In this document: positions 15,199 through 37,921 of the stretch, one piece after another
How the letters are laid out: the number at the start of each line of letters is the position of its first letter
How positions within the stretch are numbered: position 1 is the stretch's first letter
Origin: Muribaculaceae bacterium
GTDB taxonomy: Bacteria > Bacteroidota > Bacteroidia > Bacteroidales > Muribaculaceae
Length of the DNA: 64,000 bases
NCBI GenBank assembly: GCA_017557625.1
Contig: JAFYYG010000052.1
Location: 21,954-85,953 of the forward strand
Reading direction: 5' to 3'
Program-made: the position numbers and the translations under genes
The notes under the pieces: model-generated
What the model saw: the letters and a program-made list of their open reading frames with translations, nothing else
Databases searched by the model: none
What the model was told of the DNA's origin: nothing

Positions 15199-15304
15199 CT
15201 AGATTTTCTAGAAGCTTCTAGAAATTCTAGACAATATAGATTATGAATTAAGCATTATTAATTGTGCATTGAGCATTATGCATTATGCATTGTGCATTAT
15301 GAAT
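15199..15304. repeat. mixed TCTAGA and GCATTATGCAT words between sufB and sufC
   Basis: Positions 15199-15235 hold five TCTAGA-like words. Positions 15241-15304 hold about six copies of a degenerate GCATTATGCAT/ATTGTGCAT word. In the direction of transcription (minus strand) it reads CATAATGCACAATGCATAAT after the sufB stop, the same orientation as after ubiE (36080) and the acyltransferase (31600). Confidence 0.7.
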
Positions 15305-15305
15305 T

Positions 15306-29550: not shown

Positions 29551-29613
29551 ATCTGATATCTGACATCTGATATCTGACATCTGATATCTGACATCTGATA
29601 TCTGACATCTACA
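29551..29613. repeat. 14-bp tandem repeat (ATCTGATATCTGAC)x4
   Basis: Four exact copies from 29551 to 29606, then ATCTACATC. Each unit is itself two 7-mers ATCTGAY and contains the palindrome GATATC. It abuts the stop codon of the minus-strand lipoprotein gene at 29614. Confidence 0.9.
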
Positions 29614-33163: not shown

Positions 33164-33697
33164 ATGAAAAAAATCTTATTGTTGCTATTTGCGATGTTAT
33201 CGCTGACTGCCAGTGGGCAGTATATGATAACCGACAAAGGCTATTTCTATAGTCCTGATGGTTTTAAGTGCAAACATGGCCACATCTACACTAAAGACAT
33301 GCAGACGCTGGTGCGCACAGGGTGGTACGGCCGTGACGACTGGGATCAGCACTACCTTGTTGAGAAGCTTATAGAGGTGCCCTCGGGTGCCGAGGTGATT
33401 CCAAGCAATTTCCTTTATAATCCTGCTGGCGAGGCTGCTACGGGCTACAACTGGCTTTATGCCGTAGTGATTCCGAGTTCGGTGCAATGGATAGCGACCG
33501 ATGCCTTTATGATGTCTCGCGTGGTGTTCTTCACCGGAGAGACACCAGTGGAGTCAGCACCAAGTATCACTGCCGACCCCAATGCCACCGAACTTGCACG
33601 TTTCAATGTCGAAGGTCAGCGCATCGACGGGCCCCAGCCCGGCGTGAACATCGTGCTGATGAGCGACGGCACAGCGCATAAAGTACTGGTAAAATAG
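33164..33697 (+). CDS. small secreted protein with T9SS-like C-terminal tail
   Basis: 177 aa. Signal peptide cut near ASGQ. The middle has a BspA-like leucine-rich-repeat remnant (VPSGAEVIPSNFLYN, AVVIPSSVQWIATDAFM). The C terminus, ARFNVEGQRIDGPQPGVNIVLMSDGTAHKVLVK in overview, has the GQR ... PGVNIV ... DGT ... KVLVK pattern of Bacteroidales T9SS type A sorting tails. Inference: exported by T9SS and left on or released from the surface. It is small for such cargo; the core LRR region is only one or two repeats long, so it may be a decayed BspA protein. No functional partner nearby. Confidence 0.65.
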   Translation: MKKILLLLFAMLSLTASGQYMITDKGYFYSPDGFKCKHGHIYTKDMQTLVRTGWYGRDDWDQHYLVEKLIEVPSGAEVIPSNFLYNPAGEAATGYNWLYAVVIPSSVQWIATDAFMMSRVVFFTGETPVESAPSITADPNATELARFNVEGQRIDGPQPGVNIVLMSDGTAHKVLVK

Positions 33698-33800
33698 TTC
33701 ATAGTTTAGAGTTAATAGTTCATAGTTTTTTTAATGAGTGACGGCAATCGCTATTGGCTTGTTAGCTTGTTTACTCGTTAGCTTGTTTGCTTAAATACAG
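33698..33800 (+). repeat. spacer words GTTCATAGTTTAGAG and CTTGTTAGCTTGTTT before phoH
   Basis: First part: GTTCATAG twice around TTTAGAGTTAATA. Second part (33757-33790): CTTGTTAGCTTGTTTACTCG then TTAGCTTGTTTGCTT. The first word is the approximate reverse complement of the word preceding cydA (37950-37992). Confidence 0.6.
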
Positions 33801-33801
33801 A

Positions 33802-34770
33802 ATGATAGAACGACACGTAATAATTGACAACGTTGACCCTGTAGTGTTTTACGGGGTTAACAACACTAATATCCAATTAATTCGCAACTTGTTTCCCAAG
33901 CTGAGGATGGCGGCTCGCGGTTCGGTGATTACCGTCATTGGCGATGAGGCCGAGACCGAGAAGTTTGAGCACGACATCAAGCAGCTCGAGGACTATTGCG
34001 CTACTTACAACATTCTGCCCGAGGATGTGATACTCGACACCATCAAGGGGCTGCCGCCCAAGGAGCTCAAGATGGATGACGTGATTATCTACGGCGTGAA
34101 CGGCAAACCCATCAAGGGCCGCACGCCGAACCAGCAGTTGATGGTCAAAACCTTCAACGAGAACGACTTGACCTTTGCGCTTGGTCCTGCGGGTACTGGC
34201 AAGACTTACCTTGCCGTGGCTCTTGCGGTGCGTGCGTTGAAGAATCGTGAGGTACGCAAGATTATCCTGTCGCGACCTGCTGTGGAGGCTGGCGAGAAAT
34301 TGGGTTTCCTGCCTGGCGATATGCGCGATAAGATAGACCCCTATCTGCAACCGCTTTATGATGCCCTTGAGGACATGATTCCCGGAGCAAAGCTCAAGGA
34401 ATATATGGACACTAATGTCATACAGATTGCTCCGCTTGCCTTTATGCGCGGTCGCACTCTCAACGACGCTATCATAGTACTTGACGAGGCGCAGAATACT
34501 ACTACTCATCAGATTAAAATGTTCCTCACCCGCTTGGGAATGGGTTCAAAGATGGTGGTTACAGGCGACATCACTCAAATTGACCTGCCCCGCAGTGTCA
34601 CCTCAGGTCTCATCCAAGCCCTGAAGGTGCTTGATGGCGTGAAAGGCATCGGCAAGATTGAGTTTGGCAAGAAAGACATCGTGCGCCACCAGCTCGTGCA
34701 GCGCATCGTTGAGGCTTATGAGAAGCATGATGCGCTTGCATCTATCAATGCAGAAAGAATGAAAGATTAG
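33802..34770 (+). CDS. phoH: PhoH family ATPase
   Basis: About 322 aa. N-terminal region of the PhoH-like (YbeZ) type, then Walker A LGPAGTGKTYLA (~128-140), SRPAVEAGEKLGFLPGD, Walker B IIVLDEAQNTT (~229) and TGDITQIDLP (~255). Known of the family: cytoplasmic ATPases linked to RNA metabolism and, in E. coli, to YbeY and 16S maturation. The ATG at 33802 (MIERHVIIDNVD) is preferred to a TTG five codons upstream inside the spacer repeat. Its stop codon is part of the first TAGACA word of the following spacer. Confidence 0.92.
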   Translation: MIERHVIIDNVDPVVFYGVNNTNIQLIRNLFPKLRMAARGSVITVIGDEAETEKFEHDIKQLEDYCATYNILPEDVILDTIKGLPPKELKMDDVIIYGVNGKPIKGRTPNQQLMVKTFNENDLTFALGPAGTGKTYLAVALAVRALKNREVRKIILSRPAVEAGEKLGFLPGDMRDKIDPYLQPLYDALEDMIPGAKLKEYMDTNVIQIAPLAFMRGRTLNDAIIVLDEAQNTTTHQIKMFLTRLGMGSKMVVTGDITQIDLPRSVTSGLIQALKVLDGVKGIGKIEFGKKDIVRHQLVQRIVEAYEKHDALASINAERMKD

Positions 34771-34828
34771 ACAGTCCCTTTTCTAGACATAAGAACAGAA
34801 GTTGGTTTTTGGCTGCGCCTACTCTTTT

Positions 34829-35331
34829 TTAGACAAAAGAACAAAAGTTTTCAGAAGAACATAAATATTTTTTATGGATATTGAGAAATTGATTAGTGAA
34901 ATATTGGATTGCGCTAATATTGTAAGAAAGGCTCTTGCACCAGGATATGCCGAAAAAGTATATGAAAATGCTTTGATGATTGAGCTTTCAAAAGCAGGGA
35001 TTAGTGCAAAACAGCAATCACCTATCATGGTAAAATATGATGATAAAGTGGTTGGTGAGTTCTATGCTGATATTTTTGTGGAAAATTGTGTCATAATAGA
35101 GTTAAAAGCCGTGCAAAATATCAATGAAGCGCATCAAGCACAATCGGTAAATTATTTGACAGCTACAGGTGTTGATAACGGATTGCTGATAAATTTTGGC
35201 AATGAAAGTAAAATACAGATTAGACGAAAATATCGCGTTTATCGGCCCAAAGAATAATTTGCTCTCAATTGGCACGCAAGATAATAATTAATTATGTTTC
35301 TTATGTGAAATAATTATGTTCTTTTGTCTAA
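34829..35331. repeat. 15-bp perfect inverted repeats flanking the GxxExxY gene
   Basis: TTAGACAAAAGAACA at 34829-34843 and its exact reverse complement TGTTCTTTTGTCTAA at 35317-35331. A further direct, imperfect copy (CTAGACATAAGAACAGAAG) lies at 34784-34802. The left arm follows phoH, the right arm precedes ubiE, and the AT-rich GxxExxY gene lies between. No target-site duplication is visible. Confidence 0.8.
34874..35257 (+). CDS. GxxExxY protein (PD-(D/E)XK nuclease superfamily)
   Basis: 127 aa. The family-defining motif is PGYAEKVYENAL (~23-34). A putative nuclease core follows: GEFYADIFVENCVIIELKAV, where Asp66 and the E-x-K of IELK fit a PD-(D/E)XK arrangement, with a later Q-rich helix (NEAHQAQSVNYL). 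Proteins of this family are scattered, multi-copy and of unknown role in Bacteroidota genomes. The gene is clearly more AT-rich than phoH and ubiE on either side and sits between perfect 15-bp inverted repeats, suggesting acquisition. Known activity is not established. Confidence 0.85.
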   Translation: MDIEKLISEILDCANIVRKALAPGYAEKVYENALMIELSKAGISAKQQSPIMVKYDDKVVGEFYADIFVENCVIIELKAVQNINEAHQAQSVNYLTATGVDNGLLINFGNESKIQIRRKYRVYRPKE

Positions 35332-35349
35332 TTTAACAGCAGAAGAGTG

Positions 35350-36084
35350 ATGAAGGTTGAGGAGATAAAGCCATATAGCAGTGAGGGGGAGAAGGCTCGG
35401 CAGGTGGAGGCGATGTTTGACAGCATTGCGCCTGCCTACGACTTTATGAACCGCGCCATGACGCTAGGCATAGACCGGTGGTGGCGGCGTGTGGCAGTGA
35501 AGATGGTGAAGCGTAGCAATCCGCGCCGCATCCTCGACGTGGCGACAGGCACTGGCGACTTCGCCATTGACCTCTACCGTAAGATAAAGCCTGAGGCGGT
35601 GGTAGGCATAGACCTCTCGCAGGGCATGCTCGATGTGGCACGCAAGAAGATTGCAAAGCGTGGTCTTGGCGATGCCATCACCGTGCAGCAGGGCGACTGC
35701 CTGGCGTTGCCATTTGGCGATGGTGAGTTCGATGCGGTGACTGTGGCGTTTGGCGTGCGCAACTTCGAGCACCTGCAGCAAGGTTATCAGCAGATGCACC
35801 GTGTGCTCAAACCCGGCGGAATGTTGTGCGTGATAGAACTGTCCACACCTCGCAACCGCGTGGTGCGGTGGTTCTATGACCTCTACACGCTGCATATAAT
35901 ACCGTGGTTTGGTGCGCTAAAATCTCACGATAAGAGTGCTTATCGTTACTTGCCTCAAAGCATCGCTGCTGTACCGCAAGGCGAAGATATGCTCGCAATA
36001 ATGCGCGAAGCAGGCTTCAAAGACTGCAAGGTGAAGCGGTTAACATTAGGTACTTGCTCAATCTACAGTGGGATAAATGCATAA
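35350..36084 (+). CDS. ubiE: menaquinone/ubiquinone C-methyltransferase
   Basis: About 244 aa class I SAM methyltransferase. FDSIAPAYDFMNRAMTLGIDRWWRR is the UbiE/MenG N terminus, then SAM motif I LDVATGTGDFAID, GIDLSQGMLDVA, VTVAFGVRNFEHL and RVLKPGGMLCVIELS. In Bacteroidota it methylates demethylmenaquinone, the quinone used by the cytochrome bd oxidase encoded 2 kb downstream. GTG at 35347 directly precedes the chosen ATG. The last codons (INA-stop) lie inside the left arm of the next inverted repeat, so that spacer begins within the gene end. Confidence 0.93.
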   Translation: MKVEEIKPYSSEGEKARQVEAMFDSIAPAYDFMNRAMTLGIDRWWRRVAVKMVKRSNPRRILDVATGTGDFAIDLYRKIKPEAVVGIDLSQGMLDVARKKIAKRGLGDAITVQQGDCLALPFGDGEFDAVTVAFGVRNFEHLQQGYQQMHRVLKPGGMLCVIELSTPRNRVVRWFYDLYTLHIIPWFGALKSHDKSAYRYLPQSIAAVPQGEDMLAIMREAGFKDCKVKRLTLGTCSIYSGINA

Positions 36085-36556
36085 TGCATAATGCACAATG
36101 CATAAAAATGTTTAATCCTTTAATTCTAAATTAATGAAAAAAGATAATGATAATATTATTGTGATTAAGAGCAAAACTTTTGCTTTGCGCTCAATTAAAC
36201 TTTATCGTTATATGATTGAAGAAGAACACGAATATGTGTTGTCAAAACAGTTTTTGCGTTCTGCCACAAGCATAGGTGCAAATGTGAAAGAAGCTATTAG
36301 AGGTCAAAGTGATGCTGACTTTGGTGCTAAGATGAATATTTCTTTAAAGGAAGCTAGCGAGACAGAATATTGGCTTGAATTAATGCAAGAGAGTGAGTAT
36401 ATCCCTTTTGACGAAGGCGAAAATATGCTTGCCGCCTGTCGTGAGTTAATAAGAATTCTCACAGCAATAGTCAAAACCACATTTGAGAATAATAAACAAA
36501 AATAATTAACCTTTCATTTTGCATTACGCATTCTAGATTGTGCATTATGCATTATG
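36080..36556. repeat. 20-bp perfect inverted repeats flanking the four-helix-bundle gene
   Basis: CATAATGCATAATGCACAAT at 36080-36099 and its exact reverse complement ATTGTGCATTATGCATTATG at 36537-36556. The left arm overlaps the ubiE stop, the right arm ends 20 bp before pfkA, and the gene 36134-36505 lies inside. The words belong to the dispersed GCATTATGCAT family, so common ancestry of the arms as spacer sequence is likely. Confidence 0.85.
36134..36505 (+). CDS. four-helix-bundle protein (S23/23S rRNA IVS-type, TIGR02436)
   Basis: 123 aa, wholly helical. [39 protein letters not shown] and [18 protein letters not shown] are the three motifs of this family. The family was first seen as an open reading frame inside intervening sequences of 23S rRNA genes, which are framed by inverted repeats and cut out by RNase III. 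Here it is intergenic, AT-rich, and framed by 20-bp perfect inverted repeats between ubiE and pfkA. Role unknown; a stable helical bundle that may bind nucleic acid is a guess. Confidence 0.88.
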
Positions 36557-36576
36557 AATTATGCATTTTAAGAAAA

Positions 36577-37557
36577 ATGGCAAAGATTAAGACAATTGGC
36601 GTGTTGACATCGGGAGGTGATGCTCCTGGCATGAATGCCTCAATCAGGGCGGTTACACGCTCGGCGATTTTTAATGGATTTAAGGTCAAAGGCATCTATC
36701 GCGGTTACCGCGGACTGGTGGAGAATGAAATCGTGGACTTTGAGGCACAGAATGTGTCGAATATTATCCATCATGGGGGTACAATCCTGCGCACGGCGCG
36801 CTGCAAGGAGTTTAAGACCGAAGAAGGTAGGCAACAGGCTTATGATAATATGAAGAAGCACGGCATTGACGCGCTGGTGGTGATTGGTGGCGACGGTTCG
36901 CTCACAGGAGCAAGGCAGTTTGCCAGCGAGTTTGATGTGCCTATTGTTGGCATTCCAGGCACTATCGACAACGATCTCTATGGTACCGACCACACCATTG
37001 GTTACGACACGGCCCTCAACACCATCATGTGGTGCGTGGATCGCATTCGCGATACCGCCAATAGCCATGAGCGCCTGTTCTTCATAGAGGTGATGGGGCG
37101 TAATGCAGGTTTCCTAGCCCTTAATGGCGCTATCGCTGGAGGTGCCGAGGCAGCTATCATCCCTGAGATTTCTATTGAGCACGACCAGTTGGCAGAGCTT
37201 ATTAAGAGCGGTTTCCGTAAGAGTAAGAAGTCGGCGATAGTGCTTGTCGCCGAGAGTCCAATCACTGGAGGCGCCATGGGACTTGCCGAACGTGTGCACA
37301 ACGAGTTTCCGCAGTATGACGTGCGTGTCACCATCCTCGGACACCTTCAGCGTGGAGGTACGCCAACTGCCCAAGACCGCATCCTCGCCTCGCGCATGGG
37401 TGACGCTGCAATAGAGGCACTGCTTGAAGGTCAGCGTAACGTGATGATTGGCGATGACGACGAGAAGATGGTGTATGTGCCCTTCAGCAAAGCCATCAAG
37501 AACGAGAAAGATATAGACCGCCATCTGCTTGAGGTTGTGCACAGATTGTCGATTTAG
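36577..37557 (+). CDS. pfkA: ATP-dependent 6-phosphofructokinase
   Basis: About 326 aa. Glycine-rich ATP loop [18 protein letters not shown] at the start, [11 protein letters not shown] (~103; the Gly after GGD favours ATP over pyrophosphate), the catalytic [18 protein letters not shown] (~125) and [12 protein letters not shown] (~168). It phosphorylates fructose-6-phosphate in glycolysis. The ATG at 36577 ([10 protein letters not shown]) was chosen. An in-frame ATG 13 codons earlier lies within the inverted-repeat arm and would encode repeat-derived residues. Confidence 0.95.
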
Positions 37558-37565
37558 CCTTTTCA

Positions 37566-37584
37566 GTTGCGACGCCATCGCAAC
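37566..37584. terminator. GTTGCGA/TCGCAAC hairpin after pfkA
   Basis: GTTGCGA (37566-37572) pairs with TCGCAAC (37578-37584). No T run. The same stem, perfected, recurs at 37932-37949, so the two copies bracket the DUF4492 gene. Confidence 0.5.
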
Positions 37585-37627
37585 ATACTAAATTTAGAGG
37601 TAAAAATGGTGTGAAATCGCAAAAAAG

Positions 37628-37656
37628 TTACCTTAGGGTAATTTACCTTTGGGTAA
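37628..37656 (+). promoter_or_regulatory. tandem 14-bp operator-like palindromes before DUF4492-cydAB
   Basis: TTACCTTAGGGTAA (37628-37641) and TTACCTTTGGGTAA (37643-37656) are each inverted repeats TTACC-N4-GGTAA, 15 bp apart, just upstream of the -7 box at 37664 and overlapping the -33 zone. Such an arrangement suggests a dimeric regulator of the cytochrome bd operon. The regulator is not identified. Confidence 0.6.
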
Positions 37657-37663
37657 CTTTTAG

Positions 37664-37671
37664 TATATTTG
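37664..37671 (+). promoter_or_regulatory. -7 box of DUF4492-cydAB
   Basis: TATATTTG lies 28 bp before the DUF4492 ATG. The nearest TTTG is only 12 nt away (inside the second palindrome), so activation by a bound protein is plausible. Confidence 0.55.
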
Positions 37672-37699
37672 CGGACCACATTCTTAACTAATTGAAAAT

Positions 37700-37921
37700 A
37701 TGGAAGAAAAGAAGGGCTTTTGGGCACGGGCGGTTGACCTTTATGTTGACGGTTTCCGTTCAATGACGGTGGGTAAGACCTTGTGGATTATCATCGGCAT
37801 CAAGCTCATTATATTCTTTGTGATAATAAAAATACTGTTTTTTCCTAACTTCCTATCCTCTAAGAGCGATACCGATGAGGGTAAAGCGCAATATGTGCGT
37901 GAGCAACTCACTAAGAAATAA
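37700..37921 (+). CDS. DUF4492 small membrane protein of the cytochrome bd operon
   Basis: 73 aa. A short amphipathic N terminus (KKGFWARAVDLYVDGFRSMT), one membrane segment (LWIIIGIKLIIFFVIIKILFF) and a charged tail. DUF4492 proteins lie directly before cydA in many Bacteroidota and some epsilonproteobacteria. By size and position they look like small accessory subunits comparable with CydX, but that is inference. 71 bp to cydA; the gap contains a perfect palindrome and spacer words. Confidence 0.85.
   Translation: MEEKKGFWARAVDLYVDGFRSMTVGKTLWIIIGIKLIIFFVIIKILFFPNFLSSKSDTDEGKAQYVREQLTKK

Follow-up and report, generated by a model that had tools for sequence, protein, structure and literature searches.

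Two cassettes between phoH, ubiE and pfkA

The DNA analysed here (the window) is a stretch of 64,000 nucleotides from a Muribaculaceae bacterium (GCA_017557625.1, contig JAFYYG010000052.1, positions 21,954 to 85,953). Among the core genes phoH, ubiE and pfkA it carries two short genes, one for a GxxExxY protein and one, between ubiE and pfkA, for a four-helix-bundle (fhb) protein, each enclosed by inverted repeats that we refer to as arms (Table 1). A preliminary description had proposed that both are AT-rich cassettes bounded by perfect inverted repeats. We recovered the exact reverse complements of 15 bp (34829-34843/35317-35331) and 20 bp (36080-36099/36537-36556), as well as the overlap of the left fhb arm with the ubiE stop codon. 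Nowhere else in the 64 kb is there an exact inverted repeat of at least 13 bp with a gap of 200-1000 bp. GC content in 500-bp windows is ~34-35% over both cassette genes versus ~50-56% over the adjoining core genes.

The extended arms match at 71% over 42 nt for the GxxExxY element and at 90% over 31 nt for the fhb element. The fhb arms have a feature beyond the preliminary description: they are tandem 7-nt repeats (ATGCATA, ATGCACA), forward 5' of the gene and inverted 3' of it. Additional copies of the window GxxExxY left-arm motif are present in a relative (L016). No rRNA was found in window positions 33500-37800.

Table 1. Positions of the two cassettes and of related repeats in the window.
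Feature	Position	Strand	Remarks
Partial outer copy of GxxExxY arm motif (TAGACATAAGAACAGAAG)	directly upstream of 34829..34870
GxxExxY element, left arm	34829..34870	+	First 15 nt exactly match right arm
GxxExxY gene, 127 aa, PD-(D/E)XK nuclease superfamily	34874..35257	+	PF13366, TIGR04256
GxxExxY element, right inverted arm	35290..35331	-
fhb element, left arm, tandem heptamers ATGCATA/ATGCACA	36075..36105	+	Overlaps ubiE stop
fhb gene, 123 aa, 23S_rRNA_IVP	36134..36505	+	PF05635, TIGR02436
fhb element, right inverted heptamer arm	36538..36568	-
Gene-less heptamer array, fhb-arm type, elsewhere in window	15261..15305	-

Inverted repeats around other copies

Most other copies of both families, in this genome and in relatives, have this layout too. 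The source genome has nine PF05635 and five PF13366 matches, most with inverted repeats that differ from locus to locus; three copies (L007, L008, L012) have no clear layout of this kind. For the genus, we gathered 118 distinct genes (66 fhb, 52 GxxExxY) from the best-scoring loci in searches of 61 genomes, from ubiE loci and from fetched stretches. An inverted repeat was called strong if the inverted alignment between the flanks scored at least 30, and 117 genes had sufficient flank. Strong inverted repeats enclose 90 of the 117 (49/65 fhb, 41/52 GxxExxY). None of 585 letter-shuffled flank pairs reached this score, and direct repeats did so at 12 of the 117 genes. In an earlier 72-gene subset (excluding L008 and L009, which were dropped by the profile used), median scores were 46 and 39 for inverted repeats, 15 and 16 for direct repeats, and 16 for cross-pairs.

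Inverted repeats are not equally common around other genes. In long stretches of 25 genomes, 39 of 49 fhb or GxxExxY genes scored at least 30, as did 4 of the 453 other small genes. Judging by sequence, we take three of these four to be genes for Y1 transposases of the type of the REP (repetitive extragenic palindrome)-associated tyrosine transposases (RAYT), and two of the three coincide with PF01797 matches; the fourth is an open reading frame (ORF) antisense to an fhb gene. When the same stretches were scanned for inverted repeats with gaps of 120-2500 bp, 47 scored at least 40 (some nested repeats being tallied more than once). Of these, 22 enclose an fhb gene, 5 a GxxExxY gene, 11 another ORF, and 9 no ORF. 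Chance and AT-rich composition were rejected as explanations on the basis of the shuffles, the direct-repeat and cross-pair controls, and the 453 control genes. The description of both genes as repeat-bounded cassettes is supported. One GxxExxY clade (L186, L193, L019, L212) has small-hairpin arms of AGCACTTCGTGCTAAAATTAT-like units rather than plain tandem repeats.

Beyond the genus, we used the best 80 fhb loci from one scan of bacterial genome contigs (Bacteroidota, Verrucomicrobiota, Clostridia, Chloroflexi, Planctomycetes, Xanthomonas, candidate phyla and others), 74 of which had usable flanks. Inverted repeats scored at least 30 at 47 of the 74, versus 0 of 370 shuffles and 6 of 74 for direct repeats. 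Among 30 GxxExxY loci of the phylum, 26 were usable and 15 of these reached the threshold (shuffles 0/130, direct repeats 7/26). The phylum GxxExxY genes (L344-L373) often lie between inverted arms resembling CACAGAG/CCACAGAGG; such motifs are frequent as intergenic repeats of bacteria. In Xanthomonas, an fhb gene with GGGAATC-type arms was found, and its genome contains 188 exact double-unit GGGAATC words (overlaps counted) versus 0 of the reversed pattern.

Association of arm sequence with the gene

In ordered comparisons of the left arm of one gene with the right arm of another, counted as shared at a score of at least 30, genes at different sites shared arms according to protein identity: in 70/70 comparisons at 80% or above, in 45.6% of 272 at 65-80%, 8.4% of 868 at 50-65%, 0.9% of 3236 at 30-50%, and 0.8% of 1402 below 30%. 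The window fhb type has ATGCATA-type arms at three sites, namely the ubiE-pfkA spacer (G000, G001), a site in G010 (L196) and G042 (L190) with the same downstream gene by eye, and a further G010 locus (L195). For same-site orthologues, the two arms of one element were compared with each other and with each arm's counterpart. Own arms were more alike than counterparts in 13/18 pairs at 60-75% amino acid identity, 6/19 at 75-90% and 1/22 above 90%. Own arms thus prevail most often at 60-75% identity, which suggests concerted change of the two arms during divergence of the elements. The arms are part of the element, and their sequence is specific to the gene clade.

The phoH-ubiE-pfkA site in relatives

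A close ubiE (E <= 1e-130) was identified in 18 of the 101 genus genomes searched. The phoH-ubiE spacer contains a GxxExxY gene in G000, G001 and G099, and in G062 it is a 163-bp gene-less spacer with inverted repeats. The ubiE-pfkA spacer contains an fhb gene in G000 and G001, a different GxxExxY gene (32% identical) with other arms in G010, and in G042 only 175 bp, gene-less and with ATGCATA arms. The remaining readable spacers have lengths of 15 to 167 bp. A further group of relatives has an opposite-strand fhb gene behind ubiE, between GAGTTAG-type arrays (L036, L037); within this group the gene is truncated in L040, and L039 has a short inverted array only. Presence of elements at one site is patchy among relatives. 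As the preliminary description anticipated, relatives without the genes have short spacers or gene-less spacers with inverted repeats, and gene-bearing relatives keep their inverted repeats. In G053 (L022), one strand carries phoH, a GxxExxY remnant and pfkA side by side, with ubiE in inverted orientation beyond pfkA; either the DNA has been rearranged locally where the element lies, or this is an artefact of the draft assembly.

The preliminary description also considered insertion of the genes into the loop of pre-existing palindromic spacers, in which case the arms would belong to the site. Relatives do have gene-less inverted-repeat spacers at the same sites (L017, L227, L039), but this explanation is very improbable because arm sequence follows the gene between sites. 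In addition, one spacer holds an fhb gene in G000 and a GxxExxY gene with other arms in G010, and the short spacers of other relatives have no arms.

Elements nearly always lie just behind the stop codon of a co-directional upstream gene, and so would be co-transcribed with it. In predicted RNAs, the arms pair (z -3.3 and -2.5), in line with the pairing suggested in the preliminary description. These features would also suit RNA elements similar to the intervening sequences (IVS) of 23S rRNA, with which they have the fhb family in common: the arms would pair in the polycistronic transcript, RNase III would cut the stem, and removal at the RNA level would let the element persist. The 28-bp terminal stem of the Coxiella IVS is described as cut by RNase III in vitro (PMC4990558). 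We nonetheless consider this origin unlikely. It provides no route of spread, no rRNA location was found for the 20 loci scanned with Rfam out of the 80 bacteria-wide fhb loci, and GxxExxY is left unexplained: it is an unrelated PD-(D/E)XK protein, and descent from an IVS could not account for the two families together.

Heptamer arrays and gene-less copies

Lag-7 identity of fhb arms is 0.70 in the genus and 0.67 across bacteria, whereas control DNA gives 0.24 and 0.25; lags 14 and 21 show echoes of the fhb-arm signal. GxxExxY arms of the genus show only lag 9 (0.40 versus 0.30). We identified 115 heptamer arrays in 1.55 Mb of eighteen genomes with typical short fhb genes, many of which were sampled around elements. 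The seven genomes that lack such genes (G012, G013, G014, G029, G038, G045, G060) yielded 0 in 787 kb; three of the seven have no or few sampled stretches >40 kb, and one, G014, has two weak PF05635 matches. Among the eighteen, G008 and G034 have zero arrays in the 17-20 kb sampled, and G033 has 23 in the 400 kb scanned, its four listed fhb genes lying outside that DNA. Over the 25 genomes, the link between fhb genes and arrays has a Spearman rho of 0.50 (p 0.01, phylogeny ignored).

A slightly lower array threshold yields 36 distinct inverted array pairs, 24 of them around an fhb gene at 356-653 bp. The other 12 have no gene between them; their gaps are 5-105 nt in ten cases and 242 and 588 in the last two. 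The window fhb arm was found at 12 further places in 462 kb versus 0 with letter-shuffled arms (13-mers), and the other seven resident arms at 8 places versus 3.0; for all resident arms this is 20 places versus 3.0, 12 of the 20 being from the window fhb arm. With 12-mers, solo arrays fit resident arms better than foreign ones in G000, G033, G042 and G010, and not in G030 and G049.

Several other arrays were noted. Window positions 29551-29610 contain a long near-perfect 14-nt array (ATCTGATATCTGAC) with no element gene noted alongside. TCTAGA-rich gene-less arrays with a unit of ~9-10 nt (by eye) are present in the phoH-ubiE spacer of L017, L019, L224 and L229 and at window positions 15200-15240. 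In Candidatus Chloroploca (L275), dense AGGTGTC-type heptamer arrays in both orientations surround an fhb gene.

Encoded proteins

The GxxExxY structure model (predicted local distance difference test score, pLDDT, 94.1) has the PD-(D/E)XK fold, and the conserved D and ExK catalytic residues are present. The fhb protein matches PDB 2rld (E 1.1e-31). One PF05635 protein, that of L008, is longer (231 aa), and its gene is without flanking inverted repeats. Phage or known defence genes were rejected, as neither window protein matches PHROGs phage families at E <= 0.1 or PADLOC anti-phage defence models at E <= 1. PMC8934634 names GxxExxY once, at a position where a cas4 gene is expected, and PMC5524665 has fhb genes in a table of phage elements.

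The genes are under strong purifying selection. Together with arms that adjoin stop codons and many arrays that are gene-less, this might be expected of host-type regulators, with proteins that would bind chromosomal repeats or those at the 3' ends of mRNAs, and a cognate pair of arms kept beside the gene by selection with no dedicated mobility. Against this stand the patchy presence at one site, the occurrence of one unit at different sites, and that of different elements in one spacer; we regard the idea as improbable.

The families identified in the two window genes by hidden Markov models are PF13366 and PF05635 only, with no Y1 domain (PF01797) in the unit. Alternatively, a Y1 (HUH) transposase acting in trans could move the units, which would then be non-autonomous and carry fhb or GxxExxY as a passenger or accessory gene. 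Y1_Tnp matches are present in 16/16 array-positive and 3/7 array-negative genomes, and strong inverted repeats are otherwise found around RAYT-like genes. However, G000, G010 and G053 show only weak Y1 matches, in longer frames, and clade-specific arms suggest recognition by the element's own protein. Mobilisation of this kind is accordingly a rather unlikely alternative.

Proposed explanation

Judged from the sequences, each cassette is probably a mobile element consisting of one gene between inverted, element-borne arms, because gene and repeats travel together among relatives. On the best reading, the cassettes are organised like RAYT-REP units and carry an fhb protein or a Cas4-like nuclease instead. 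The arm-gene-arm unit would have settled in different intergenic sites as one unit. The encoded protein may recognise its own arms in the form of an RNA or single-stranded DNA hairpin, and the unit could then be copied to a new spacer with host replication, recombination or another transposase. In this copying fhb may serve as an oligomeric scaffold, and GxxExxY as a nuclease of the Cas4/lambda-exonuclease type. Arrays and hairpins without a gene would be derivatives that arose by gene loss or by spread in trans.

Several observations weigh against a mobile element. Scores are below 30 at 27 of the 117 genus copies and at 27 of the 74 bacteria-wide fhb loci, GxxExxY arms are not heptameric, and 97 of 152 arrays have no inverted partner at the lower array threshold. 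Arm-sharing comparisons within a clade are not independent, and of 190 comparisons at the same site no more than 53.2% show shared arms. We found no exact filled/empty junction or target duplication and no close filled/empty pair, and the gene-less sites fit gain or loss of the gene. The uneven sampling and disregarded phylogeny of the array counts belong here as well, as does the fact that movement of the units is deduced from computation.

The cassettes point to widespread, little-noticed one-gene mobile DNA, and may explain some puzzling seven-letter repeats in bacterial genomes. Tentatively, and with a little less than even confidence, we suggest that fhb and GxxExxY elements form a bacteria-wide minimal class (one non-transposase gene with terminal inverted repeat arrays) and are a hidden source of many 7-nt (fhb) and CACAGAG-like (GxxExxY) intergenic repeats, the fhb genes of 23S IVS being an rRNA-settled branch. 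The unexplained fhb/S23 family and the widespread GxxExxY nuclease family would thereby gain a shared biology, fhb/S23 would be linked to the orphan heptanucleotide repeats of Xanthomonas and perhaps to further ones, and the spread of 23S intervening sequences, a long-standing question, would be placed in a wider set of elements.

Comparison with known systems

Avd, an accessory protein of diversity-generating retroelements, has a four-helix-bundle fold. A reverse transcriptase as shared trans factor was rejected, as RVT_1 was not found in 9/16 array-positive draft genomes and is present in 3/7 array-negative ones; it looks unnecessary for movement.

The 23S rRNA IVS likewise have an fhb/S23 gene between terminal inverted repeats able to form a stem. 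The elements described here differ in being intergenic and outside rRNA, in having heptamer arrays as arms, and in that a second, unrelated family (GxxExxY) has the same layout.

Orphan heptamers are likewise 7-nt units repeated in tandem between genes, and those of Xanthomonas are often paired in inverted orientation. The accounts of them that we consulted describe GGGAATC as a heptamer that forms quadruplexes, occurs as 70 inverted pairs in one Xanthomonas species and is generally not associated with mobile elements (PMC4692102), and TAACTGA heptamers in Beggiatoaceae, cyanobacteria and Bacteroidetes (PMC4679880); the portions concerned draw no link to fhb or GxxExxY genes. In the literature searched, with most subscription journals outside it, "four helix bundle protein" never occurs in one paper with "GxxExxY", or with both "tandem repeats" and "intergenic".

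In RAYT/REP systems, a REP-associated tyrosine transposase gene lies between two inverted REPs, as outlined in PMC2817692. The units described here differ in having PF05635 or PF13366 proteins in place of a Y1/HUH transposase, and in having, for the window fhb element, arms of tandem heptamers where REPs are palindromes with a GTAG head; hairpin arms are present in the one GxxExxY clade. The likeness lies in a single gene between inverted repeats, in the co-divergence of gene and repeat, and in numerous gene-less repeats, often inverted doublets.
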